From the NCBI RefSeq assembly GCF_019243775.1, contig NZ_CP069157.1:3750729-3814728 (forward strand): a stretch of 64,000 bases of DNA, given 5' to 3'. Shown here in pieces: positions 51,344 through 60,849 of this stretch. Below the pieces are notes generated by a model. It was not told where the DNA came from, did not search any database, and saw only the letters and a list, made by a program, of their open reading frames with translations. Position 1 is the first letter of the stretch, and each line of letters begins with the position of its first letter. This DNA is from Morganella morganii (lineage in GTDB: Bacteria > Pseudomonadota > Gammaproteobacteria > Enterobacterales > Enterobacteriaceae). The position numbers and the translations under genes were made by a program.

Positions 51344-51783
51344 TGTCAGACTATCCGTTCAGCTTAAAACACCGGACAGTATGAAACATAAATACCAAAT
51401 CAAATGCGATAATAACCATTAATTAAATACATTATTATTACGTTTAAAATCTCTCCATCAATAAAATAAAAAATAATCATCACTTTTAATGATATTTATG
51501 AATTAATAACCCGGTTTACCGCACAGAAAAACTCTGAATGTGCATCACATATTTTCATTCTTATATTTGAAATAAATCTGTCACAAAAAATAAAAAATTG
51601 TGATTTTTTAATTCGTTATTTAATTAGCATTCTAATCAAATTATTCTCATTGCAAACAAATGATAATAATTCTCATTTACAGAAAATTCATTCTCCTTTA
51701 TCGTTTATTTGCTTCCGGCAATCATACCGGAAAAAGGCATTTCACTCATCCGGTCATTCATTAAATTACAAGGAGTTTAGTTT
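51344..51783. other. AT-rich promoter region of the haem-uptake operon
   Basis: A very AT-rich non-coding stretch of 440 bases. It contains a good Fur box at 51659-51677 and a lone half-box ATTCTCATT at 51643-51651. No credible small gene was found. Confidence 0.7.
51659..51677 (+). promoter_or_regulatory. Fur box
   Basis: AATGATAAT-A-ATTCTCATT: a 9-1-9 inverted repeat with one mismatch between arms, the classical Fur operator. It is about 105 bases before the hemophilin-like gene and predicts repression of the operon by iron-loaded Fur. Confidence 0.8.
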
Positions 51784-52563
51784 ATGAATACATTTAATAT
51801 GAAAACCCCGCTGGCGACACTGGTTACCCTGTGTGCCGCATTCTCCGCGGTACAGGCTCAGGCTGATGCGGGCTATGGATCATCATCTGCCGAAGGCTTA
51901 AGTAACTATATATCTGTCGGCGTAACCGCTGCATCAGAGCGTCAGGGGCATCCGTCACCGGGCGGAGAACCGGGAATTGGTTATTCCGGCATGCACAACG
52001 GAACCAAAGTCAGCTTTGCCGGACTGCAGGGACCCAACCGTGCAACACCAAACGATAACGGTGTTTCTGTTATCACCTCAACTCCGCAGTCACACCGCAG
52101 TATGGGCTCTTTTAATTTTGCCAAAATAGCCGATGCCGATATTTATTACGGTGAATGGGTTTCCGGTACTGATTTCAGCGATGATTCCCATATGGTGTAT
52201 TACGCCGGGAAAGATATTACCGCCGCCATGCCATCCGAAGGGACGGCACAGTACAGCATTAAAGGACTCAGCGGGTACAGCAGCGGTGAACAGATCAGCG
52301 GTACATTCAGTACGGATTTTGATGCCAATACCTTTAGCGGCTCTCTAAGCTCAACCGAGCTCAGCTACAGCCTGAGCGGGGATATCAGTGGTTCAACCTT
52401 TGATGGAACCGCATCTGTCAGCACCACCGGTACCGATACCACAGCCGTCAGCGGTACGACCAACGGGCATTTCTTTGGTGACAATGCACAGCAGGTTGCC
52501 GGTTATGCTGAGTTCAGCAGTGATAAAGCGAAGAATATCGCGTTCGGCGGAACCAAGTCTTAA
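51784..52563 (+). CDS. Hemophilin-like Slam-dependent secreted haem-binding protein
   Basis: A 259-residue protein with a signal peptide (LATLVTLCAAFSAVQAQADA) and no lipobox cysteine, so the mature form is probably soluble. The C-terminal 120 residues are a beta-rich barrel with serine/threonine-rich hairpins ending GHFFGDNAQQVAGYAEFSS and IAFGGTK. That is the TbpB-type barrel signature recognised by Slam exporters. Hemophilins of Haemophilus and Acinetobacter have this layout with an N-terminal haem pocket; here histidines occur near residues 56-72. AAGGAG precedes the ATG. Haem as ligand is inferred from the family and from the Fur box, Slam, receptor and TonB around it. Confidence 0.78.
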   Translation: MNTFNMKTPLATLVTLCAAFSAVQAQADAGYGSSSAEGLSNYISVGVTAASERQGHPSPGGEPGIGYSGMHNGTKVSFAGLQGPNRATPNDNGVSVITSTPQSHRSMGSFNFAKIADADIYYGEWVSGTDFSDDSHMVYYAGKDITAAMPSEGTAQYSIKGLSGYSSGEQISGTFSTDFDANTFSGSLSSTELSYSLSGDISGSTFDGTASVSTTGTDTTAVSGTTNGHFFGDNAQQVAGYAEFSSDKAKNIAFGGTKS

Positions 52564-52626
52564 TTCATTATTGATACATTTCATCAGGAACAGATTATCT
52601 GTTCCTGGTGTTTAGCGGATATAAAT

Positions 52627-53979
52627 ATGTCATCGCAGATAAAGTTAATTTACGGATTTATTCTTTTTTTATTATTACTTGCTTTTTCATTACCGGTATC
52701 TGCAACCATACAAAAAAATAATCATTCAGAGAATGATAATACTGCACGAAATTTATATCTCTCACTAAAGAAAAATAACCTCAAAGCAATTTATCATTAC
52801 TTATCTGTTTATCAGCAGGAACATCAGGCTGACCCGTTACTGATAATCTTCAGCCAGGCAAAACTGGCCTATTTAAACCAGCGCCCCGGGGTTGCAATCC
52901 GGTTATATAACACTATTCTGCAACAGAAACCCCATTTCTTTACCGCACAACTGGAACTGGCCCGCAGCTACCGGGCTGATCGTCAGCTCGGGAACGCCTT
53001 GCTTTTGTTCCGGGAACTGAGCCAGCGCCTGCCGGTGACCTCTCCCCACTATCCGGAGATTACCCGCGCCATTACCGAACTCACCCGGGCACTCAGTTGG
53101 TCATTACTGCTCAGCGCCGGTAGCCATTACACGGATAACTATTATCAGACTCCACTGCCGAAAACACACTGCCTGCACTACAGCCCCGATGGTTCCTGTT
53201 ACGCCAGCCTTATTCCGCAGATCCCCCACACCGTCTTACAATGGCGCAGCGACTGGGATCTGCGCAGGCTGACGCCGCTGTCCGGCTCCCATTTTCTGAC
53301 GCAGCACTACCGGGTATCCACCCGGTATGATGCCGCGAATCAGGCAGCCAATACCTTAACACTGACTGCTAAAACGGGTTATCACTATCAGGATCACCAT
53401 ACTTTATGGCAACTGACTCCGCTGCTGGAGCAGCATTTTTCCGCCGGGCGCCGTTTTTCCTCAGCTTACGGCTTACAAACGTATCTGAATCAGCAACTCA
53501 GCCCGGAGTGGTCTCTCGGCGGATTGGCTGCACTTCGACAGCACCGTTATCAGCCTTATCTGCATTCACATAACGGCACTGAATACCAGTTGATACCACA
53601 GATAACCTGGCGTCCGCATCCGGCAGCCACGCTGTATTTACAGGCAGAAACCACCGTCCACAAAAAAAATGATCCCTATAAACATTACCAGACGGCTGCC
53701 CTGCATACCGGCCTGACCTATCTGTGGCACCCTTTTGTGTCCCAGTCTGTTCATGCCGTTTACACCCGTAAACGTTATCACCATACACATCCGTTACACC
53801 GCCAGGCCAGGGAGGATCTCACCCGACAGTACAGTACAACACTCGCGCTCTATCCGCCGTCATTCGCGCAAATTTCACCTCAGCTTTCACTGATCCACAC
53901 CCGCAACCGCAGTTCTGTCCCATGGCTTTATAGCTACCGGCAGACTGAAATCATGCTGCGTTTTGAACGGCTGTTTTAA
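52627..53979 (+). CDS. Slam (DUF560, type XI secretion) outer-membrane exporter
   Basis: A 450-residue outer-membrane protein. After the signal peptide come tetratricopeptide-like helices (about residues 40-150, for example PGVAIRLYNTILQQKPHFFT and QLELARSYRADRQLGNAL). The rest forms a beta barrel ending in phenylalanine (EIMLRFERLF). This is the Slam/DUF560 plan of Neisseria Slam, Acinetobacter HsmA and Xenorhabdus NilB/HrpB, which move a TbpB-barrel cargo across the outer membrane. The likely cargo is the protein encoded immediately upstream. Confidence 0.85.
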   Translation: MSSQIKLIYGFILFLLLLAFSLPVSATIQKNNHSENDNTARNLYLSLKKNNLKAIYHYLSVYQQEHQADPLLIIFSQAKLAYLNQRPGVAIRLYNTILQQKPHFFTAQLELARSYRADRQLGNALLLFRELSQRLPVTSPHYPEITRAITELTRALSWSLLLSAGSHYTDNYYQTPLPKTHCLHYSPDGSCYASLIPQIPHTVLQWRSDWDLRRLTPLSGSHFLTQHYRVSTRYDAANQAANTLTLTAKTGYHYQDHHTLWQLTPLLEQHFSAGRRFSSAYGLQTYLNQQLSPEWSLGGLAALRQHRYQPYLHSHNGTEYQLIPQITWRPHPAATLYLQAETTVHKKNDPYKHYQTAALHTGLTYLWHPFVSQSVHAVYTRKRYHHTHPLHRQAREDLTRQYSTTLALYPPSFAQISPQLSLIHTRNRSSVPWLYSYRQTEIMLRFERLF

Positions 53980-54019
53980 CCCTTTCTGATTATTTATTTT
54001 TTATCATCCGGGAATCGTT

Positions 54020-56962
54020 ATGTCTTCGCATTCACCATTATCTGGTCACCCATATAAAACAATCACACTGCTTCTGCCCGTGTTATTTATCCCGCTGCCG
54101 GGACTGGCGGCAGAGGAAAAAGATCAGCACCTGGGCGATATTACGCTCCGTAATGAACAGACCGCTGCTGACAGCGCCAAAGATAAAATCTATGACAAAA
54201 ATGTCTCCACCCTGATCCTCACCAAAGAAGAAATAGAGCGCTATAAAGGCGCCTCTGCCGCCGATATTCTCAAAGGCGCCAACGGGGTATTCAGCGGTGA
54301 TGCCCGCAACGGCAACGCGCTGGATGTCAATATCCGCGGAATACAGGGGCCGGGCCGTGTACCGGTCACCATCGACGGCACCGAACAGGCCGTGACGGTG
54401 TACCGGGGTTATAACGGTGCCAATAACCGTAACTACCTTGACCCGATACTGATCAGTGAAATTGAGATTGAAAAAGGCCCGTCCCTTAACCCGCTCCTGA
54501 AAACGTCGGTAGGCGGCGGTGTTGCCATGAAAACGCTCACTATCAATGACGTGGTGAAAAACGGTGACCAGTTTGGTGCTGCACTGATGCTGGAAAACAG
54601 CAGTAACACCACCAAAGCCCGGATACCCAATCTGGGGCTCGGGGAAGATTACCGCCTTGTGGATAATATGCAATTTGATTGGCTTATCATTGACGACCCC
54701 GGCACCCATTTAACCCCGGAAAATCGTGATAATGCCCCCACACTGAATAAAAGCGACTACGCCTGGCGTCTGGCAGTGGGTACCCGTCAGGAAAATATGG
54801 ATCTGCTGCTGGCTTATGCTTACCGCGACCGGGGAAACTATTTTGCCGGTAAACGCCACAGCGAAAACTATAATGATGAAATGTCTGACAGTGATATCGG
54901 TATTTTGCAAATGTCGAATATGACTTACGACCCGTATATGCCGTTTGTGTCCCGTATTTACCGCAAGGGTAATGAAGTTCCCAATACATCGGCAAAAACG
55001 GAATCCTGGCTGATAAAAAATACCTGGTATCTGAATGATGACCACGCGCTGCAACTCAGCTGGCGCGATACCCGCTCGGATTTCGGCGATATTATGCCTT
55101 CCCGGCTGGGCTGGATCCGCGCTGAGGATAATATTATTCCGCAGTGGCCGCTGGCTGACCTGCATGCACAGGCCGGTTATCTTCACCTGAAATCCCAACC
55201 GGCACATTTTACCTATATTGATGCAGATATCCGCCTGTGGACCACCCTGACCACCAGCAATACCAACTCCGGCGGCGGCTGGCCGCGTTACCCGAAGAAT
55301 ATGGACTACGGCTATAAACAGGGGGATATCAACACCATCAACCCGGCAATCGATGGAACACTGATTAACACCGCTGCCCTGAATGTACAGAATCAGCGCT
55401 ACGGGCTGGATTTCAGCAATAAGTTTGCTTTTACCCCGGAACTGTCGGTGACTCTGGCCGCCAATATGCAGTTTGAGCATCTGGACAGTAATACCAGCCT
55501 GGAAAACTATAAACTCTTTATGTTCGCTGTTCCCGCCCGTAAAGGCCGCCGCTTTGAATATCAGCAATCCGTCAGCCTGGACTGGCAGCCGGTCTCCTGG
55601 CTGTCACTTAGTGCCGGCGGCAGACAAGCCGTATACTGGAGTGTGGATGATCTCTCCAATGAGTGCGCCGCCCGCAAAGACCCCTACTGCAAACAAAACT
55701 ATGAAGTTACCGGTTATTACCTGAATTATTTCCGGAATATGACCGAAATAGAATCACAGGTTTATAAAAAACGGCAGCAGGGTATGTGGCACGAACTGAC
55801 CCCGGAAGAAAAACAAGCAACATGGGGAAAAATTTTTCAGTCTATATACCCAAAATGGCGTCGTGATTACCTCAACAACCGGAAAGACCGGCCAATGGTA
55901 CATGAGCAGGCATTCTGGCCGGTGGATACCAGTGACGGACGCCTGAAACAGAAAGACCGGCCGGATATCGATACCGCATTACGGGGTATTGATCCCTATA
56001 CCGGGCAGGAAACCTATCTCTATGAGTATGGCAGCCTCCCTATTTCGCACGGTGACAGAGAACTTCAGGCAGTCACCCACACCTGGAAAGAAAAACCCCG
56101 CCGCCAGGCTAGCGCCTGGACACCGATGCTGTCTGCCTCGGTGCATCTGACTGATGATCTGCGTCTGTATGGCCGCTATGCGGAAACCGTACGTATGCCG
56201 AGCCTGTTTGAGGATACTGTCGGGTTTTCCGGTTCCTCTGTCCCGCATATCGGTTACCGTTATAAACCGGAACGTGCGGTAACACGGGAATACGGTGTAG
56301 TTTTTAACGGGAAATCACTGCTTCATGCTGACCGCCATGCAGATATCCGGCTGAACTACTTCCATACGGATATCCTCAATGTCTTTGATCGTGATAATTA
56401 TTTCCGTTTTACACAGATGGATAAGCAGATCCTGAAAGGGATTGAAATCCAGGCCCGTTATGATCATGGCTGGATCTTCAGTGATCTGGGGGTGACCTAT
56501 AACCTCACCAATAAAGTCTGTGATGAAACATCCCATGCCTTTATGGATCCGACCGGGCTGAAAGATATCCCGTCATGCATTGACGGCGGTTATCCGGGCG
56601 GGTTCCTGCGCACCCAAATCCAGCCGCACTACTCTGTGACCTTTAACCTCGGCGGGCGTTTATTGCAGGAGTCATTAGAAATCGGCAGTCGCTGGCTCTA
56701 CCACAGTGCGGTGGAAAACAGCCAGGAGAAACGTCTGATGACGATTGTCCCTAACCAATACAGCAATTTTAATAACTACCCGATGCGCTGGAATTCGGTA
56801 CTGACTGTGGATGCTTACGCCAAATATAAAATCACACCGGATGTTACCCTCGAACTGACGGCCACCAACCTGACCAATGAATATTACCTCGACCCGCTCA
56901 CCCGTTCGATGATGCCTGCACCGGGCCGGGCCGTAAAATTCAATGTTTCCGCGAGGTTCTGA
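54020..56962 (+). CDS. TonB-dependent outer-membrane receptor (probable haem/hemophilin receptor)
   Basis: A 980-residue TonB-dependent receptor. It has a signal peptide (ITLLLPVLFIPLPGLAA) and a plug domain ([55 protein letters not shown]). The long 22-strand barrel has large loops and ends in FNVSARF. Two cysteine pairs occur in extracellular-loop-like regions (CAARKDPYC and CDETSHAF...SCIDGG). The classic haem-receptor FRAP and NPNL motifs are not visible; the equivalent position reads ETVRMPSLFED. Position 40 bases after the Slam gene suggests it takes haem from the secreted protein. Confidence 0.88.
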   Translation: MSSHSPLSGHPYKTITLLLPVLFIPLPGLAAEEKDQHLGDITLRNEQTAADSAKDKIYDKNVSTLILTKEEIERYKGASAADILKGANGVFSGDARNGNALDVNIRGIQGPGRVPVTIDGTEQAVTVYRGYNGANNRNYLDPILISEIEIEKGPSLNPLLKTSVGGGVAMKTLTINDVVKNGDQFGAALMLENSSNTTKARIPNLGLGEDYRLVDNMQFDWLIIDDPGTHLTPENRDNAPTLNKSDYAWRLAVGTRQENMDLLLAYAYRDRGNYFAGKRHSENYNDEMSDSDIGILQMSNMTYDPYMPFVSRIYRKGNEVPNTSAKTESWLIKNTWYLNDDHALQLSWRDTRSDFGDIMPSRLGWIRAEDNIIPQWPLADLHAQAGYLHLKSQPAHFTYIDADIRLWTTLTTSNTNSGGGWPRYPKNMDYGYKQGDINTINPAIDGTLINTAALNVQNQRYGLDFSNKFAFTPELSVTLAANMQFEHLDSNTSLENYKLFMFAVPARKGRRFEYQQSVSLDWQPVSWLSLSAGGRQAVYWSVDDLSNECAARKDPYCKQNYEVTGYYLNYFRNMTEIESQVYKKRQQGMWHELTPEEKQATWGKIFQSIYPKWRRDYLNNRKDRPMVHEQAFWPVDTSDGRLKQKDRPDIDTALRGIDPYTGQETYLYEYGSLPISHGDRELQAVTHTWKEKPRRQASAWTPMLSASVHLTDDLRLYGRYAETVRMPSLFEDTVGFSGSSVPHIGYRYKPERAVTREYGVVFNGKSLLHADRHADIRLNYFHTDILNVFDRDNYFRFTQMDKQILKGIEIQARYDHGWIFSDLGVTYNLTNKVCDETSHAFMDPTGLKDIPSCIDGGYPGGFLRTQIQPHYSVTFNLGGRLLQESLEIGSRWLYHSAVENSQEKRLMTIVPNQYSNFNNYPMRWNSVLTVDAYAKYKITPDVTLELTATNLTNEYYLDPLTRSMMPAPGRAVKFNVSARF

Positions 56963-56965
56963 TTT

Positions 56966-57763
56966 ATGTACGGCGCAATAGCATTACCGCATCCGCCTTT
57001 CCTGTTTTCCCGGGAAAGAACCGGAACGTGGCAGCAGATGGTTTCTGCTGCTGCGATCGGTGTGTGTTTCTCCGTCGCCGGGCTGCTCATCACGGGCAGC
57101 CCCCCGGTGACCGCCCCGCAACAGCATCAGATTGATAACCGGGGACAAACCCCGGCGGTTTCCGTTGCCATTCAGATGAGTGCAGCACCGGCATATCAGG
57201 AGACAGAGCCGGAGGAGGAACAATTACCACCACCACAGGAATCACCGTCTCAGGCAGAACTGGCAACCACCCGCCGGAAAACACCGGAGAAAACAACCAA
57301 ACCACCATCAGCAAAACCGGCAGTAAACGCTGTGAACAAAAAAACGGAGAAATCAGAACCGATCACCACAAAAACCACCGCGGATACCGGAGAGGATAAA
57401 ACCACACAGCAGCAGTCCGGCGGACAGGCAGTATCCCCGACAAATTCTGCCACCGCAGGAGCCGATAACCGGAAAGCACAGGAGGATTACTTTAACCTGC
57501 TGCGGCAAAAAATTGAGGAGCAAAAACATTACCCCCGCCGAGCCCGCAGCGCCGGGCAGCGGGGGATCAGCACCATTTCCTTTTCTCTCGACGATAACGG
57601 CAAACCTTTTGCACCGGTCGTTACCCGCTCTTCCGGTTATGAATTACTGGATAACGCCGCAATGGATGCTGTCATCAGGGTTGCTGCTGTCGGTACGCCG
57701 CCACCAGGTGCAAAACGGAGGGTGACATTCTCATTACGTTTTCAGCTGAACAAGGGTTTTTAA
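56966..57763 (+). CDS. TonB family energy-transducing protein
   Basis: A 265-residue TonB. It has one N-terminal membrane helix (MVSAAAIGVCFSVAGLLI), a proline/lysine/threonine-rich periplasmic spacer (EPEEEQLPPPQESPSQAE onward) and the C-terminal domain (HYPRRARSAGQRGISTISFS, YELLDNAAMDAVIRVA, FSLRFQL). It starts three bases after the receptor stop, so it is a dedicated TonB for this operon. No exbB or exbD is nearby; the chromosomal pair must be shared. Confidence 0.9.
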   Translation: MYGAIALPHPPFLFSRERTGTWQQMVSAAAIGVCFSVAGLLITGSPPVTAPQQHQIDNRGQTPAVSVAIQMSAAPAYQETEPEEEQLPPPQESPSQAELATTRRKTPEKTTKPPSAKPAVNAVNKKTEKSEPITTKTTADTGEDKTTQQQSGGQAVSPTNSATAGADNRKAQEDYFNLLRQKIEEQKHYPRRARSAGQRGISTISFSLDDNGKPFAPVVTRSSGYELLDNAAMDAVIRVAAVGTPPPGAKRRVTFSLRFQLNKGF

Positions 57764-59408: not shown

Positions 59409-60788
59409 TTACTTCCCGATACAAAAACTCGAGAAAATGCGCCCGAGCAGATCGTCGGAGGTAAATTCACCGGTGATTTCGCTCAGTGCCTGCTGGGCGA
59501 GACGCAATTCTTCTGCCAGTAATTCGCCGGAGCGGGCAACTACTAACTGCTCGTGACCGGAGATCAGATGCTCTGCCGCAGTGTTCAGTGCCTGTAAATG
59601 ACGGCGGCGGGCGAGGAATCCGCCTTCAGTGTTGCCTTCAAATCCCATGGTGGTTTTCAGGTGATCGCGCAGCAAATCAATACCGTGGCCTTCGCGGGCA
59701 GAAAGTTTAATCAGCGTATCGCCGTTCCGCTCTGTGATACCGGTGGTTTCCCCGGTGATATCGGTTTTATTGCGGATAATGGTGACCGGGATACCGGCCG
59801 GTAAGCGGGACATAAATTCCGGCCAGATTTGCTCCGGGGTCTGTTCATCCACCGTGGTACCGTCCACCATAAACAGGACGCGGTCTGCCTGTGCAATTTC
59901 CTGCCAGGCGCGTTCAATACCAATCCGCTCCACTTCATCCCCGGCTTCGCGCAGCCCGGCGGTATCAATGATATGCAGCGGCATACCGTCGATATGAATA
60001 TGTTCACGCAGCACATCACGGGTGGTTCCGGCAATATCAGTGACAATCGCAGCTTCGCGTCCGGCAAGAGCATTCAGCAGGCTGGATTTTCCGGCATTCG
60101 GGCGCCCGGCAATCACCACTTTCATCCCTTCACGCAGCAGGCTGCCCTGACGCGCCTGAGAACGAACCCGTTCCAGGTCAGCAATAACGGTATCGAGTTT
60201 GGCTTCAATCACACCATCCGAGAGAAAATCAATTTCCTCATCCGGGAAGTCGATTGCTGCTTCGACATAAATCCGCAGGTTAGTGAGTGCTTCCACCATC
60301 TGATGCACTTCCCCGGAGAAAGCGCCCTGTAATGAATTCATCGCCGAACGGGCCGCCTGTTCCGAACTGGCATCAATCAGGTCAGCAATGGCTTCCGCCT
60401 GTGCCAGATCCAGTTTGTCATTAAGGAATGCACGCTCTGAAAACTCACCGGGATTGGCAATGCGGATATTATCGATAAGCAGAATACGTTTTAACAATAA
60501 ATCGAGGATAACCGGTCCGCCGTGCCCCTGGAGTTCCAGCACATCCTCACCGGTAAAGGAGTTCGGGCCGGGGAAGAAAATTGCAATCCCCTGATCCAGC
60601 ACTTTGCCGGTTTCATCACGGAAAGGCAGATAATCGGCATAACGCGCTTTCGGGAGTTTCCCCAGTACAATCTGAGCCACCTGTGCCGCCTGCGGGCCGG
60701 ACACACGCAAAATACCGACTCCGCCGCGTCCCGGCGGGGTTGCCTGTGCCACAATGGTATCGGTGCTCTGAATTTCAGCGTTATTCAT
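59409..60788 (-). CDS. mnmE: tRNA uridine-5-carboxymethylaminomethyl GTPase MnmE
   Basis: MnmE works with MnmG to modify U34 of several tRNAs. The 459-residue protein has the folate-binding N-terminal domain ([18 protein letters not shown]), the G domain ([21 protein letters not shown]) and the C-terminal FCIGK with the catalytic cysteine. I chose ATG 60788; ATG 60794 is also possible. It lies downstream of yidC, the conserved order. Confidence 0.96.
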
Positions 60789-60824
60789 GACCATGTCTCT
60801 CTTTCTCACCGTGTGATAAACAAT

Positions 60825-60849
60825 AAAGGCGGTCAATATGACCGCCTTT
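60825..60849 (-). terminator. Terminator between yidC and mnmE
   Basis: AAAGGCGGTC-N5-GACCGCCTTT, a perfect 10-bp stem followed by a T-rich stretch on the minus strand. A second GACCGGC/GCCGGTC hairpin (60864-60888) overlaps the yidC stop codon. Confidence 0.7.

Follow-up and report, generated by a model that had tools for sequence, protein, structure and literature searches.

The final 64 kb of the 3.81-Mb single-contig genome of Morganella morganii (contig NZ_CP069157.1; this whole 64,000-nucleotide stretch is called the window here) contain a four-gene operon that very probably encodes a cargo protein of the hemophilin (HphA/HrpC) family, predicted to leave the cell through an adjacently encoded Slam exporter of the type XI secretion system (T11SS), to bind haem between two histidines, and to deliver it to its own TonB-dependent receptor. 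Iron-scavenging systems of this kind are already known, and the operon adds one from Morganella; for the mosaic variation of its haem-binding clamp, no description in print was found. From the protein families we infer haem as the ligand and a working secretion route. M. morganii is an opportunistic pathogen, for which this operon makes a strong candidate as the system that takes haem across the outer membrane.

The genes run cargo, Slam, receptor, and TonB, all on the + strand, with intergenic gaps of 63, 40, and 3 bp. The original prediction had placed a Fur box and these four genes here, and all five elements were found in that order and at those positions:

51661-51675, + strand: Fur box, a 7-1-7 inverted repeat (TGATAAT-A-ATTCTCA) that starts 123 bp before the cargo start codon
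51770-51775, + strand: ribosome-binding site of the cargo gene (AAGGAG), read in the sequence and present in 6/6 Morganella alignment rows
51784-52563, + strand: cargo of the hemophilin/HphA/HrpC family, 259 aa, by Pfam, NCBIfam, and predicted fold
52582-52610, + strand: RNA hairpin between the cargo and Slam genes, by folding energy and conserved pairing
52627-53979, + strand: Slam, the T11SS outer-membrane exporter, 450 aa, by PF24575 and PF04575
54020-56962, + strand: HrpA-type TonB-dependent receptor, 980 aa, by Pfam plug and barrel and by homology
56966-57763, + strand: TonB-family protein, 265 aa, by PF03544, 3 bp behind the receptor gene

What marks the cargo as a hemophilin? It matches PF22828 (the HphA_N haem clamp, 97.2 bits against a cut-off of 22), PF22829 (the HphA_C barrel, 44.5 against 31), PF01298 (the TbpB-type barrel, 42.5 against 26), and the NCBIfam model NF041636 (109.1 against 80). 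It is the only PF01298 match in the genome and is encoded beside Slam. By structure comparison, its predicted fold is nearest to the hemophilins. The earlier suggestion of a hemophilin-like cargo is thus upheld by sequence families and fold alike; a fold unrelated to the TbpB-type barrel is not what was found. The protein can be divided into a signal peptide (about residues 1-27), a variable haem clamp (about 28-110), linking strands, and the TbpB-type barrel (about 148-259). Haem is predicted to be held by two residues, His56 and His104. His104 aligns with HphA His106 (numbering by arithmetic); across 31 Morganella-type cargos (the window's plus 30 clusters), 30 retain it and one has Tyr instead. 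His56 is kept in all 31 and is likewise invariant in 24/24, in the loop region that matches HphA His43. The hemophilin of Haemophilus haemolyticus (Hpl) is described as using one histidine (PMC8560813), whereas two are conserved in the Morganella cargo.

The exporter has an N-terminal TPR region and a C-terminal barrel family, with PF04575 (SlipAM, DUF560) at 112.3 bits against a cut-off of 22 and PF24575 (Slam TPR) at 59.2 against 35.2, and it is the only PF04575 match in the genome. The 450-residue protein had been claimed as a Slam/DUF560 member, and the family search places it well over cut-off, the barrel family included, while the predicted barrel itself was not confirmed by modelling. 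The receptor, proposed earlier as a 980-residue TonB-dependent receptor, carries plug and barrel domains over cut-off (PF07715, 52.9 bits against 23.9; PF00593, 91.9 against 27) and is 50% identical over 99% of its length to the Xenorhabdus nematophila heme receptor (P0054). Among the best 120 of 840 relatives, from a search in which scoring was limited to the 7992 candidates with the most shared words, those of Xenorhabdus and Photorhabdus are 47-51% identical and those of Arsenophonus, Proteus, Providencia, and unnamed organisms 40-44%. These identities put the receptor near the HrpA type of Xenorhabdus. Its closest solved structure by sequence is HasR. Last in the operon, the TonB protein scores 49.8 bits with PF03544 (cut-off 24.6) and likely serves the operon's receptor. 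It had been called dedicated; its family and its adjacency hold, while for the dedication only gene order speaks, the genome having five TonB_C matches, four of them over cut-off.

The Fur box departs from the 7-1-7 pattern at one position and is the sole match in the 64 kb with one mismatch or fewer; none of 100 shuffles had any. All 15 bases are identical in five aligned Morganella relatives, and at four of four Photorhabdus loci a mismatch-free 7-1-7 repeat lies upstream of the cargo gene. The box falls in the promoter region, and the operon is predicted to be Fur regulated. Elsewhere in the window, positions 1628-1646 match the Fur consensus at 16 of 19 bases, the highest such score on the + strand of the window.

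How might these parts work together? At low iron, Fur would leave its box, and the operon would be transcribed. The cargo would then cross the inner membrane by the Sec route and be cut by signal peptidase I, after which Slam would recognise the C-terminal barrel and release the cargo unanchored. Outside, the N-terminal clamp would take haem, perhaps from host haemoproteins, via His104 and likely His56. The receptor would take the haem over, with TonB powering its uptake, and the chromosomal HemS-HmuTUV set would be the likely carrier into the cytoplasm.

That last set, comprising HemS (244 bits), a FecCD permease, a periplasmic binding protein, and an ATP-binding cassette (ABC) protein, lies together at 1.62 Mb (L070:6122-9807), and none of the genome's 16 Plug-domain genes is near it. 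For M. morganii KT, hmuSTUV, a "possible haeme-binding system" (MM1650-MM1651, where MM1650 is a TonB-dependent receptor), and 12 further TonB-dependent receptors are reported, and no receptor is named for hmuSTUV in the accessible text (PMC3521468). For strain UM869, chuS and chuU are listed (PMC10298637, accessible part). Of the 16 Plug matches, one is the window's receptor, scanned separately, and one a short fragment; none of the other 14, scanned with NCBIfam, reached the TonB-hemin cut-off, a negative that is not decisive because 9 of the 14 are truncated by the end of their locus and the receptor in the window also falls under that cut-off.

The HphA, hemophilin, and HrpC systems have already been characterised, judging from the accessible text of three papers (PMC8560813, PMC8406197, PMC12282271). 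The X. nematophila proteins HrpA, HrpB, and HrpC, with a TonB, provide the same four functions as the Morganella operon; Xenorhabdus cargos are 37-44% identical to the window's, and HrpB is reported to raise HrpC release in Escherichia coli (PMC8406197). Photorhabdus has the same cargo-Slam-receptor-TonB order at four of four loci, with identities to the window of about 40-45% (cargo), only 23-26% (Slam), 47-48% (receptor), and 33-35% (TonB). In Acinetobacter baumannii, the hemO cluster encodes HphA, HsmA, HphR, and TonB, HphA having a lipobox motif and the Morganella cargo none. A haem oxygenase partner as in Acinetobacter was sought and set aside, since the genome has no PF01126 match (3 of 14 control genomes matched). 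Related HphA structures come from Vibrio harveyi, Stenotrophomonas maltophilia, and Haemophilus parainfluenzae. In Serratia, HasA, HasR, and HasB are a secreted haemophore, its own receptor, and its own TonB, and HasA is exported by a type I ABC exporter. The Morganella operon has the same three parts and differs in using Slam for export. The receptor differs too: by Pfam scan it has no STN domain, and Tyr131 stands where HasR has His189. A HasA-type system was dropped as a candidate, there being no PF06438 match in the genome, though this absence is weak because the control genomes gave none either. As the original prediction supposed, the accessible literature yielded no work on a Slam-secreted haemophore from Morganella, although two 2024 Journal of Bacteriology papers on hemophilin families, which lie outside that literature, may list Morganella. 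PMC8406197 is the only paper in it found to mention Morganella alongside hemophilin or Slam, and its one main-text hit is the family name Morganellaceae.

Is the cargo really released? NCBI's name for its family is "Slam-dependent surface lipoprotein," which several relatives also carry and under which NF041636 scores over cut-off, and the name would make it a surface-anchored lipoprotein co-receptor similar to TbpB or HpuA. This is very unlikely. The cargo's sole cysteine, residue 17 (LVTLC), is preceded by Leu and gives no lipobox, and AQA|DA after it could plausibly be cut by signal peptidase I, both judged by reading, with no signal-peptide predictor; the earlier description of a secreted protein without a lipobox is borne out to that extent. 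In favour of the lipoprotein reading, A. baumannii HphA has a lipobox motif and yet is released (PMC8560813). Against it, soluble signal peptidase I cargo is described as the rule (97.8%) for T11SS subcluster 1B (PMC8406197), and the predicted fold is, as mentioned, hemophilin-like. The lipoprotein reading was rejected for want of a lipobox, and release rather than anchoring is preferred because of the family and that missing motif. A different doubt concerns the ligand. The same machinery could serve a cargo that grips a haemoprotein, another tetrapyrrole, or a metal for the receptor, with free haem not the main ligand. No part of the cargo varies more than the clamp, HphA also binds haemoglobin (PMC8560813), and T11SS cargos named for other ligands exist, such as the cobalt receptor protein CrpC (PMC12282271). 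We nonetheless consider this unlikely, given the 97 bits with the HphA_N haem-binding domain model and the near-complete conservation of His56 and His104.

Several observations weigh against a working, haem-specific system of this kind. At the level of the parts, the AlphaFold model of the cargo is poor at residues 1-83 (predicted local distance difference test, pLDDT, below 50), and the clamp was left unmodelled for that reason; the equivalence of His56 and HphA His43 is unconfirmed by residue-level alignment, and in the S. maltophilia structure 8gmm the loop histidine is two residues off. The Slam model has a mean pLDDT of 45, with the helical TPR part modelled well and the barrel not modelled with confidence; it was dropped as too poor, and no PDB chain matched Slam by sequence. 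The receptor scores below the cut-off of the NCBIfam TonB-hemin model TIGR01785 (197 against 316.85 bits) and is therefore not filed there. In HasR, the plug residue His189 holds haem; it is replaced in the window's receptor by Tyr131, which aligns with position 189 of the 3ddr chain and is Tyr in 121/121 receptors (the window's plus the 120 relatives), and no histidine of the window's receptor is strictly conserved across the receptor family. Downstream, the sole Fur-like site with two or fewer mismatches in 18 kb around hemS (L070:5371-5385) is not upstream of hemS, and other receptors could also feed HmuTUV, for example MM1650-MM1651 of strain KT (not mapped to this operon). Finally, one or more reading frames of the operon are interrupted in four of the six Morganella species genomes, in Slam (G002, G003, and G005, that is, loci L002, L003, and L004), in the receptor (G003 and G004, loci L003 and L005), or in TonB (G002), where L003 and L005 are Morganella psychrotolerans. 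Does the operon therefore decay in the genus and work in only some strains? We regard this as improbable. The window and L006 carry all four genes unbroken, the cargo is intact in 6/6, and intact copies are common elsewhere, with 449 member sequences in one full-length Slam cluster and 578 in one full-length receptor cluster. Short homopolymer runs mark at least two of the break sites, in the Slam signal-peptide region (L004) and in the receptor's hypervariable segment (L003 and L005), so that sequencing error or switching is possible; the interrupted frames could be error, decay, or phase switching. As for distribution, cargo, Slam, and receptor are found in 6/6 Morganella species genomes, and the trait is patchy more widely, HphA_N having turned up in only 8 genomes of a family-wide sample of 198.

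The haemophore varies in an uneven way. In one database clustered at 90% identity, with relatives counted at 75% or more, there are 32 cargo clusters (two shorter than 250 aa, three fragments uncounted) versus 8 receptor and 4 Slam clusters (two truncated), the receptor and Slam searches having scored only candidates sharing most words. At the level of whole genes the contrast is small: between the window and L002, L004, and L006, identities are 87-94% for the cargo, 90-95% for Slam, and 92-95% for the receptor. Within the cargo, mean pairwise difference among the 31 sequences is 0.30 at residues 28-60, 0.20 at 67-110, 0.06 at 111-147, and 0.10 at 148-259. In a PHI-like permutation test of site compatibility, 0 of 1000 permutations were as low as observed, with all 31 cargos and again with the 29 that exclude two M. 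psychrotolerans-like ones, and recombination is therefore indicated; the sequences show local recombination to be diversifying the clamp, and to a greater extent than the barrel. Across the six pairs of four M. morganii loci, the nonsynonymous rate (dN) is 0.016-0.193 in the clamp (28-110), reaching 0.179-0.193 in the four pairs between window/L006 and L002/L004, versus 0.031-0.049 at residues 111-259. Positive selection was considered and dropped because the ratio of dN to the synonymous rate (dN/dS) does not reach 1 in any of the genes or in the clamp, and the whole-gene ratio of TonB (0.20-0.33) is above that of the cargo (0.14-0.25).

The two M. psychrotolerans cargos give a closer view. 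They agree at 95.4% over codons 111-259 and at 98-100% in three codon windows covering 17-47; in the two that cover codons 41-63, identity drops to 71-73%. At codons 49-63, the first is nearest to the window (0.82 versus 0.69-0.71) and the second to L002 and L004 (0.84-0.87 versus 0.67), on which grounds two clamp segment types look shared across the two species. These best identities are about the between-species level in the rest of the cargo gene, and at codons 41-55 the first cargo resembles none of the M. morganii loci (0.69 each); the sharing, judged from two M. psychrotolerans and four M. morganii loci, could also be old gene flow or convergence. In the receptor, variability among nine sequences peaks at residues 581-620 (0.43-0.47, with 0.27 at 621-640 and a mean of 0.10), a hypervariable segment that is presumably extracellular. 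One tentative and rather doubtful speculation is that the clamp is an old, recombining, balanced polymorphism, in which a few alternative peptide segments flanking an invariant His56 are exchanged among strains and common to M. morganii and M. psychrotolerans. They would sit on the better-conserved barrel and be accompanied by the hypervariable receptor segment. The cargo would then be a strain-private or immune-variable secreted haem scavenger, with exporter and receptor maybe switched by slipping homopolymer runs. More generally, the patchwork variation may reflect long-lasting selection. It provides a natural set of variants with which one could ask whether a secreted haemophore is matched to its cognate receptor, to haemoproteins of the host, or to antibodies, and what portion of a Slam cargo can vary freely. 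The mosaic polymorphism is described here as seen in Morganella, the genus in which it was sought. Each of the six Morganella genomes gave only one cargo match, in a search that short donor pieces could escape. One M. morganii strain may carry two different cargo alleles (P0016 and P0032), and one genome of the same family has three tandem HphA_N matches (G132:C6:100553-102982), a possible haemophore gene array.

Between the cargo and Slam genes, the hairpin has a 13-bp stem and a 3-nt loop, followed by only TTT. Positions 52561-52630 fold at -19.8 kcal/mol (z, -4.2; 0 of 200 shuffles as low). It is present at 6/6 Morganella loci (five distinct rows), where 98.5% of cells pair versus 35-46% when slid; the paired fraction was reached in 17 of 500 shuffles, the number of pair types in 213 of 500, and the tally of 3 of 13 pairs with both sides altered in 4 of 500. 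Photorhabdus has a different hairpin with a T-rich tail in the same place at four of four loci (no shuffle control). The Morganella hairpin might reduce exporter relative to cargo expression and, together with the strong cargo ribosome-binding site, might hold the cargo above its exporter. The spacer is about 110-125 bp longer in both M. psychrotolerans strains (L003:8800-8915 and L005:8800-8900) than in M. morganii, and the extra sequence looks like a small repeat element.

Two other regions of the genome deserve mention. At 3.348-3.358 Mb (L071:5278-15119), a TonB, an STN-type TonB-dependent receptor, an SbmA-like ABC protein, and an M16 peptidase are encoded side by side; a second haemophore cluster had been considered beside this TonB and was rejected on these Pfam matches. 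We take two further genes there to be ECF sigma and FecR-like, and the region presumably resembles a protein-scavenging, Fus-like system. Directly past the operon, the window gene at 59409-60836 is one we take to be mnmE, for a tRNA-modifying GTPase. A tRNA-modifying GTPase is listed among genes that co-occur with cluster 1 T11SS (PMC12282271, accessible part).
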